Shown here piece after piece: positions 12,842 through 15,073 of a stretch of DNA of 64,000 nucleotides. This DNA comes from Nitrosospira briensis C-128. Lineage in GTDB: Bacteria > Pseudomonadota > Gammaproteobacteria > Burkholderiales > Nitrosomonadaceae. The stretch covers positions 2,294,001 through 2,358,000 of the forward strand of contig NZ_CP012371.1 in the NCBI RefSeq assembly GCF_000619905.2, given 5' to 3'. Position 1 is the first letter of the stretch; the number at the start of each line of letters is the position of its first letter. The translations under genes were made by a program, and so were the position numbers. The notes beneath the pieces were generated by a model that saw only the letters and a list, made by a program, of their open reading frames with translations, searched no databases and was not told the origin of the DNA.

Positions 12842-13909
12842 TTAAAAATGGAGCTTGATACTGGCCTGATAAAATTCCTTGGACACTTCGCCTTTGAGAT
12901 CGGCGCCTGCCGCGAAGCGCAGGGCAATGCTCATGGGCAGTGCAAACTCGATATAGGGGCCTATCCAGTTGTAAACCGTCCCGGTATTTCCCTCGATTCG
13001 GTCTTTATGAAATCGCAGGTGTTCCCAATGAACGCCAATGGAACTGACCGGTACGTTTTTAAAATTGAACAGCGCGGGCTTGATGCCGACGTTGATCCAG
13101 TTATGGATAAAGTCCCTCGCCCGCTCATCGCGAATGGCCAGATAGTAGGCAAGATACATCTGCCCAGTTACAAAATCGTCATCATAGGTAAGCGTCATGC
13201 TGGGCACCACACCTTCCGCAGCCCGGATACCCCTGCCGACGACCCGACTGGAGAGCAGGGCGCCATTCAGCATGCCGATCTGGGGATTGATGGTTAATGC
13301 GTCATTGAGAAAGCGAAAATTCAAACCCATGCCAACTTCAGTCCAGAGTCCATTGCCACCGGCATCAACCTGGGTACCCTGGGGACCGGAAATCACCCGG
13401 CTGCGGCCGAAATTGGGGCTGGTCCAGAGCCAGCTATAAAAGGTAAAGTCGATATTGTCCGTAACTGCATAACCCGCATCGAGTATGGTCTGGAAACCAA
13501 AAAATGCATCCTGTTTCAAGGTCACGCCACCGTGAAATTTTTTCTTGCCAAAGTGGTGACCGTCGCGTTCGGTATCATGCCAGCCCTTATCCTCCGCAAT
13601 TCCTTCCAGGTCTGCAACCGGGACCTTCAAGGTTTCTGGTTTTTTCTCAGGCTTGTGATTTACTCGCGTAAGCGCGGCGGGGGAGCCCTGCTTCAAGATT
13701 GCGTCATCACGGGAATTTCCCTTATCTAAGCCCTGACTTCCGATTTCGGTACCATGGCCGCCCTTAGCCTCCAGGCGTCCTTCCAGCTCCATAATCCTGG
13801 CCTCCAGGGTTTCCAGCCTCTTCCTTAGTTCGCTGTCTGTTTGCGCAAATACAGCGGATGACATACAGGCGGTTGCAAGAAACAGAAAAAGACCAAAACA
13901 TTTTTTCAT
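12842..13909 (-). CDS. Predicted outer-membrane beta-barrel protein
   Basis: 355-residue exported protein. It starts at MKKCFGLFLFLATACM, a signal peptide ending ...VFAQ. A short coiled-coil follows (about 25-45, RKRLETLEARIMELEGRLE), as in some trimeric porins, then a linker and a beta-rich domain from about 140 to the end. Alternating aromatic and polar strands and a C-terminal ...ASIKLHF with terminal Phe are typical of BAM substrates. An upstream in-frame start at 13960 exists, but ATG at 13909 gives the clean signal sequence. Upstream, on the same transcriptional side, lies an array of six 11-bp TGTGA repeats that may control it. Substrate unknown; it may be a porin-like or family-specific barrel. 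Confidence 0.75.
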   Translation of the reverse strand: MKKCFGLFLFLATACMSSAVFAQTDSELRKRLETLEARIMELEGRLEAKGGHGTEIGSQGLDKGNSRDDAILKQGSPAALTRVNHKPEKKPETLKVPVADLEGIAEDKGWHDTERDGHHFGKKKFHGGVTLKQDAFFGFQTILDAGYAVTDNIDFTFYSWLWTSPNFGRSRVISGPQGTQVDAGGNGLWTEVGMGLNFRFLNDALTINPQIGMLNGALLSSRVVGRGIRAAEGVVPSMTLTYDDDFVTGQMYLAYYLAIRDERARDFIHNWINVGIKPALFNFKNVPVSSIGVHWEHLRFHKDRIEGNTGTVYNWIGPYIEFALPMSIALRFAAGADLKGEVSKEFYQASIKLHF

Positions 13910-14016
13910 ACCAGTTATTGCACTTCCATTACTCCTACCTGATCCCAATTTTGGTGACATTTCTATTCACTTTCTTTTTGTGTGTTGGAGATATTCACTT
14001 CAGATTTCATCACGTT

Positions 14017-14082
14017 TGTGAAATTTATGTGATTAATATGTGAAGTGGATGTGAATTATATGTGAGGTTTATGTGAAGATTA
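14017..14082. repeat. Six direct repeats of TGTGA at exact 11-bp spacing
   Basis: TGTGA begins at 14017, 14028, 14039, 14050, 14061 and 14072. Read on the minus strand the unit is approximately TTCACATnnnn. The spacing matches one helical turn, as in binding arrays of PhoB/OmpR-type winged-helix regulators. The array ends about 107 bp upstream of the outer-membrane protein start at 13909 and is outside any gene. Confidence 0.85.
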
Positions 14083-15073
14083 AACGAATATTTTATTTTT
14101 TTTCGGTGAAATTGAATTTGCCGAGAACGCATTGAGATCAACCGGGATGCAATGGCATCAATGCATTACCACGCCGAGCATTGCGATCGGTCGGATAACT
14201 GACGAGAAGCCGCCAAGGGTTAACTGGATGGGCTATGAATGCGATATGAGCGCGTTTCCGCTGCGGTAAATACGGTTTCAGGCCGTGAGAACGCCTGCGG
14301 CGGCGATAACATGCGTGGCCCGCGAGCTTGATCTGAGCATGATCGGCTGATGGAAACCCATCGCTTGCAGTTACGTGTCGATTGTCGGCAAAGACCTCAT
14401 CGTTGAAGTCGTGGCAGAGGTGGTTTCCCCGAAGATCGGTACGCTGACGAAGCTCAAGAAACCGGATTGGCCAGTTTTGCGGGCGCGAAATCAGCCGGGT
14501 TGCGTTGGTTACCGGAAAACCTCAAGTTTGCGGCACAGTCGAAGTAACGTGGTCGCTCCTGAAATACCTACTCGACCCATAGAGGTATCAGCGATCAGGG
14601 GTATATAACGGGAACCGTCAACGTGTCGACGTTCGCCTCAAGATGGAATGATTTAAACTTTGGTAGCCCGCAGATCCAGCGGGCATGCGAAAGCGGCTTG
14701 TGCTGTGTCATAAGTCTTATTCGCTATTTTGGCCCGGGAGATTTCCGCATTGCCGCCTATGACCAAACCGGTATAATTAATTTGAATTTTCAATCAGGAG
14801 ATTCTCCCCTTCACATGGCCCGGTAATCGGCTCTTATCCGCTGGAAGGGAATAGGGGGTCGCGCGCTGGATAAGGCAATATGCCTTCATTCTGACATCAG
14901 CAATCGATCTCGAAGCCATCTGGCATCAGCGTAGATGCAAAAATCGTTTTTCAACCGATCCGTTATTTATTCCCGGGCATAGCCAAGTCAATCGGCGGTC
15001 TTCCGATTTACCGGCGTAAGGGCGGGTTTTTTGTTAAAATACGCTTTAATTTCTTAATTTAGTGGAGTATTTA
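14083..15073. other. About 1 kb without a convincing gene upstream of ndk
   Basis: Short ORFs on both strands carry no recognisable domain. A stretch near 14300-14340 reads in one frame TPAAAITCVARELDLSMIG, loosely like the C-terminus of FdhD, and may be a decayed gene remnant. The longest short ORF here (14375-14608) has no family resemblance. The end of the region should hold the ndk promoter; TAAAAT near 15034 is a possible -10 element, without a well-spaced -35. Confidence 0.4.

Follow-up and report, generated by a model that had tools for sequence, protein, structure and literature searches.

Six copies of the word TGTGA stand in a row ahead of a minus-strand gene in the 64,000-nucleotide stretch of the Nitrosospira briensis C-128 genome analysed here (the window), and they raise the question of whether they form an operator and, if so, which protein reads it and with what effect. 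The words start at 14017, 14028, 14039, 14050, 14061 and 14072 of the plus strand, in steps of exactly 11 bp. A pattern that demands three such words in phase matches four times in the window and never in 100 dinucleotide shuffles (mean 0, largest 0), which confirms the perfect phase described in the initial annotation. In the whole genome (3.21 Mb) the pattern has eight matches, which make up three arrays, and its reversed-word control has none. The features of the locus are collected in Table 1.

Table 1. Features of the array locus, with positions counted from the first base of the window.
Feature	Position	Strand	Basis and remarks
Array, six units of (T/C/A)TCACA at 11-bp steps	14017..14077	- (gene sense)	Read from the sequence, shuffles and relatives
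Putative relic unit TTCACC (GGTGAA on +), in phase	14105..14110	-	33 bp upstream of unit 1; inference from sequence
Predicted -35, TTAATC	14078..14083	-	Consensus inference; 17 bp from the predicted -10
Predicted -10, TATAAT, in the linker of units 2 and 3	14055..14060	-	Consensus inference
DUF6733 gene (PF20507, 372 aa)	12842..13960	-	Pfam E 1.8e-56

The composition of the unit was taken from a position matrix of 121 units, drawn from 32 of the genus's 38 arrays of at least three units; the TCACA core is fixed in this matrix by the way the units were selected, and position 7 is A in 52 units, T in 49, C in 17 and G in 3. In gene sense the unit is (T)TCACA followed by a loose linker, and the originally proposed word TTCACAT was too specific. 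One word is thus repeated head to tail at 11-bp steps, as in a direct-repeat operator. Chance or neutral tandem duplication could also be invoked for such a row, since TRF detects tandem repetition in the array, with 79% matches at period 22 and 68% at period 11, and the number of units varies among species; however, the absence of in-phase triplets from the shuffles speaks against it, the linkers of the window array differ from unit to unit, so that it is not a plain copied satellite, and arrays recur before unrelated genes with diverged linkers and in a fixed promoter geometry (below). Conservation already contradicts chance or neutral duplication, which we consider scarcely credible.

The gene downstream, which belongs to Pfam family DUF6733, had been drawn from 13909 and its product taken for an outer-membrane barrel. 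The array does lie upstream of this gene, but the start codon is probably the one at 13960, because the methionine at 13909 is replaced by T or R in the G001, G020 and G007 copies, and with that start the array ends ~57 bp upstream of the start codon. The protein has a signal-like segment from about residue 18 and a C-terminal F, and it is likely exported; the barrel assignment could not be upheld, since the Pfam family is one of unknown function and the structure model, predicted from a two-sequence alignment, is unusable (mean pLDDT 34.7). On the other side of the array ~900 bp separate it from the next gene (ndk-like, 15062), and the interval at 14100-15050 has no convincing long ORF and resembles coding DNA that has decayed.

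Ten DUF6733 copies occur in 9 of the 23 genomes of the window's genus, and TCAC(A/G) words lie within 300 bp upstream of all ten (2 to 12 words each), with 58 of the 66 gaps between neighbouring words being multiples of 11. The number of units differs between species and reaches eight contiguous units in G007, and the weakest upstream regions are those of the second copy in G005 (two words, gap 22) and of G019 (gaps 21, 31 and 11, one of three in phase). The expectation that the array would be found in the orthologous promoters of relatives was therefore borne out, two weak copies included, and its in-phase recurrence there supports, as far as sequence comparison reaches, the earlier proposal of an operator array of the PhoB/OmpR-family kind.

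Arrays are not confined to this gene. With the reversed word as the chance control for whole-genome counts, arrays of at least three units were found in 15 of the 23 genomes of the genus (63 matches, against two control matches, both in G004) and in 60 of the 125 genomes of the family, where the reversed word gives such an array in one of 125. They recur, as direct-repeat operators do, before several genes as well as in orthologous promoters: within the genus they precede genes for DUF6733 proteins, BBP2 porins (PF07642), small membrane proteins (38 to ~70 aa) and small exported coiled proteins, and the window array appears to be one member of a family-wide operator set. A broad contig scan returned, among the matches listed, true arrays mixed with plain tandem repeats, and 17 of the listed loci were opened; G008 and a Nitrosospira multiformis MAG (L131) have identical arrays, and matching arrays were likewise seen in G031 and N. 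aestuarii (L103).

Several of these loci deserve separate mention. A four-unit TTCACA array lies 176 nt before amoC (PF04896, E 2.1e-130) in L070 and L280 (Nitrosovibrio sp. Nv6 / G017), the one genome of the genus in which amoC stands behind an array. The N. briensis genome carries several copies of a family of small exported coiled proteins with a KQLLEHYEEKSYLYG motif (L256:364-4351 and L257:3455-3907), some of them behind TTCACA pairs, for which no named Pfam family scored above its cut-off; at L257:1713-5331 two BBP2-like porin genes flank one small coiled protein, with array units before the first porin. In Nitrosomonas-like contigs (L285-L314) arrays recur in the form TTCACAAAAAGTTCACA and precede a different group of genes, as a rule at a greater distance from the start codon. 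These include the genes of a protein starting MNTLFSPLKLGALTVPNRIF (an enzyme, behind arrays in 5 of 30 loci), a 444-aa protein and a USP-like protein, so that the same word seems to serve a different target set there.

How do these arrays compare with known operators? One close counterpart is Mycobacterium tuberculosis PhoP, which according to the available part of PMC4832192 binds direct repeats TCACAGC-N4-TCACAGC of 11-bp period, three or four motifs being bound more tightly than two by tandem stacking. The TCACA core and the period are common to both, but PhoP is a different OmpR-family protein in a different phylum with different regulated genes, and contiguous units reach six and eight here as against the three and four motifs described in that text. 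The CreB/BlrA tag of gamma-proteobacteria, TTCACN6TTCAC in the portion of PMC4689548 consulted, has the same word and period, and the N. briensis genome holds 14 such pairs (control, 1); it consists of two words, however, where the window array is long. CreB itself was rejected as the regulator, as none of the four OmpR-family regulators of this genome reaches its cut-off (154 to 210.5 against 273 bits). Streptomyces PhoP has as its PHO boxes simple and complex operators built from 11-nt direct repeats of GTTCACC (PMC4415409, available text); these, too, have head-to-tail units of variable number and order, but the word ends differ and no link to phosphate was seen here. The E. coli PhoB Pho box shares the period of 11 and differs in its word (CTGTCAT against TTCACA), a distinction already drawn in the initial annotation and retained. 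By this comparison the array would work like the PhoP, PHO and CreB operators while being neither a Pho box, by its word, nor a CreB site, by its regulator.

TGTGA is also the half-site word of CRP, and this coincidence invites the reading that a regulator of another family (CRP/FNR-like on TGTGA half-sites, or AraC-, LytTR- or SARP-like) binds the array. CRP requires the inverted arrangement TGTGA-N6-TCACA, and a CRP-like site was rejected here: the array words are direct, not inverted, and the upstream regions of the ten DUF6733 copies contain only 0 to 2 antisense words per 300 bp. Tandem repeats are used by other winged-helix families too, SARP for example, in the literature text available; repeats at 11-bp steps are nevertheless the usual OmpR/PhoB arrangement (PMC4832192, available text), and the TTCACA word sits beside the gene of an OmpR-family regulator, X, described next. 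We regard a regulator from another family as quite unlikely.

The four OmpR-family regulators of the N. briensis genome are PhoB (358.9 bits against an equivalog cut-off of 296.2), a heavy-metal-type regulator that scores above its subfamily cut-off, a CpxR-like regulator that scores below its own, and X, which reaches no cut-off among the 25 families shown. The CusR-like and CpxR-like regulators of N. briensis could be dismissed as array binders, because G001, G007 and G014 have arrays and their only OmpR-family regulators are PhoB and X. X is a 227-aa response regulator encoded in an operon with a 431-aa histidine kinase (HisKA, HATPase_c) at ~1022513-1024451. PmrA/BasR, solved with DNA (8jo2, 4s04), is among its closest relatives of known structure (E ~3e-36), but X is not PmrA, because its score of 168.1 falls below the PmrA cut-off of 330. 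An X ortholog (at least 67% identity, one split over two contigs) is present in 104 of the 125 family genomes, and arrays occur in 60 of these 104 against none of the 21 genomes that lack X (Fisher p 2e-7, a value that assumes independent genomes, which these are not; the X-less set includes small or incomplete genomes). Within genus g3 (probably Nitrosomonas) alone the corresponding numbers are 42 of 74 and 0 of 11 (p 5e-4). The remaining 44 of the 104 X-bearing genomes have no three-unit array.

We opened the X locus of N. briensis and 20 others (17 of the genus and 3 of Nitrosomonas) from the 104 genomes with X. The recognition-helix segment SDTLRSH(M/V)H(E/I)LRR is present in all 21 X proteins, and 19 of the 21 loci have a TTCACA promoter of two to four units behind the X operon. 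Two-unit sites were scored with a matrix derived from arrays elsewhere, and the X and PhoB loci of each genome were compared: the best score was higher at the X locus in 18 of 20 pairs (p 1.9e-4), while G010 and G066 deviated. The highest-scoring site is downstream of the kinase gene of the X operon. Next come genes for the uptake of inorganic carbon or for carbonic anhydrases, which belong to unrelated families and differ by species: Pfam identifies SbtA and a PII-like protein (N. briensis, L362), DabA (L346), SulP (L350), a CsoSCA-like protein (L354, E 5.6e-8) and Pro_CA_2 (L351, E 8.6e-8), and by N-terminal resemblance, on which the gene names rest outside the Pfam-scanned loci, the 21 loci comprise nine SbtA-like, seven DabA-like, four CsoSCA-like and one SulP gene. 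That unrelated carbon genes follow the same box suggests that the TTCACA box and X belong together. In N. briensis itself 591 bp separate the SbtA start from the X-linked site, a distance that makes this particular link loose.

The placement of the units relative to the core promoter falls into two main classes. In the first, the -10 lies exactly between units 1 and 2; this holds for 15 of 37 distinct arrays of the genus (the 38 arrays of at least three units minus one duplicate), which are not 15 independent events because many are orthologs, and at ten other offsets the count among the same 37 is 0 except for a single case at offset 6. These promoters are strong (TTGACA-like, a 17- or 18-bp spacer, TATAAT-like). 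Both the -10 and the start would lie under a protein stacked on such units, an arrangement suggestive of repression. The second class lacks a good -35 and has a TGN(T/C)A-type extended -10, separated by 7 bp from the last unit upstream. A promoter of the type TTCACA-N7-TGN was found at 19 of 21 X loci, at 6 of 6 BBP2 loci and at 0 of 21 PhoB loci, the X and PhoB loci adding up to similar lengths (165521 and 166221 bases); this rule was framed after the X loci had been read, and a stricter first rule gave 13 of 21 X and 5 of 6 BBP2 loci. In PhoB-activated promoters the box takes the place of the -35. The boxes of the carbon genes and BBP2 porins occupy that same place, which suggests that these genes are activated.

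The DUF6733 promoters show a related form: in 8 of the 10 copies TATACT or GATACT has a unit 10 or 11 bp upstream of it, and more units follow. This upstream, activator-type arrangement is absent from the window's own copy and from G019 among the ten compared. The best consensus promoter of the window (TTAATC-17-TATAAT, 14083-14055) lies inside the array; placement against promoter elements is fixed within each of the two classes, as in direct-repeat operators, and the window promoter fits neither class exactly. Geometry also bears on the idea that the repeats act in an RNA leader, by protein or small-RNA binding, and not as a DNA operator. At least the later units of the first class would be transcribed, judging from their position, but in the 15 of 37 arrays unit 1 precedes the -10, as do the units at the X-linked and BBP2 promoters, so that these units are not in the RNA; an exact 11-bp phase is, moreover, a feature of the DNA helix. 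A role in RNA is for these reasons very doubtful.

The other regulator that accompanies the arrays is PhoB. It is present in 122 of the 125 family genomes, including every array-bearing one, its operators share the 11-bp head-to-tail logic, and Streptomyces PHO boxes use the similar GTTCACC (PMC4415409, available text), so PhoB, or in Nitrosomonas a second PhoB-like paralog, might bind the array as a divergent Pho box and the set might be a phosphate regulon. In g3, arrays occur in 39 of 60 genomes with at least two PhoB matches against 3 of 25 others, an association at least as strong as that with X. Against this, PhoB is present in 19 of the 21 X-less genomes and none of these has arrays, the PhoB of N. 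briensis is a regular one by its equivalog score, a second PhoB is absent from the genomes of the window's genus at E 1e-60, the TTCACA promoter is missing from the PhoB loci, and no TTCACA pair was seen before PstS-like genes (at most two mismatches, ~200 bp, by eye). The word of the phosphate regulon is CTGTCAT, and that of the array is TTCACA. N. briensis has a near-canonical Pho box, CTGTCATAAAACTGTTA, ~40 bp before a Porin_O_P gene; the Pho-box pattern matches twice in this genome against once in the control, which is thin evidence for a separate PhoB word, and no clear Pho box was found before its PstS-like genes. We consider control of the arrays by PhoB improbable. Two further observations concern PhoB-related loci: across G031-G115 many genomes carry a second PhoB-like regulator, which goes with arrays and which the window's genus lacks, and near the PhoB gene of N. 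briensis (L250:608-3433) there are two transposase-like ORFs of 338 aa that look identical and run in opposite directions.

The reading we favour, at a probability of roughly 70%, is that the array is an operator on which an OmpR/PhoB-family regulator, most likely X, stacks and activates or represses according to placement. X is most likely the regulator of the array and the best candidate for it; its binding, its signal and its sign of control are what we infer from the comparisons above. Monomers would stack head to tail, one per 11-bp unit and on one face of the helix. X would activate where units end ~10 bp before the -10, at the carbon genes, the BBP2 porins and eight of the ten DUF6733 copies, and would repress where they overlie both the -10 and the start, at the small-protein genes. 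The six units of the window array extend over the predicted spacer, -10 and start. The number of units would set the cooperativity and the level of phosphorylated X required.

To our knowledge, how ammonia oxidisers control their carbon-uptake and envelope genes has hardly been mapped. A literature search of titles and the first lines of abstracts returned no two-component system beside carbon-uptake genes in these organisms, and the available text of a proteomic study of three ammonia oxidisers (PMC5960693) describes abundant porins and contains no passage on two-component systems or response regulators. We propose, tentatively, that an undescribed two-component system may sense inorganic-carbon supply in ammonia oxidisers, and that arrays of two to eight or more units of one word, placed before or across the core promoter, may switch genes in opposite directions, with array length tuning the dose at which each responds; the targets would be genes for carbon uptake, porins and small membrane proteins and, in one Nitrosovibrio genome, a lone amoC. 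If this is true, a regulon of nitrifiers would be readable directly from sequence by means of one DNA word, and the natural contiguous arrays of two to eight units before orthologous genes would form a series relating unit number to the response of an OmpR-family regulator.
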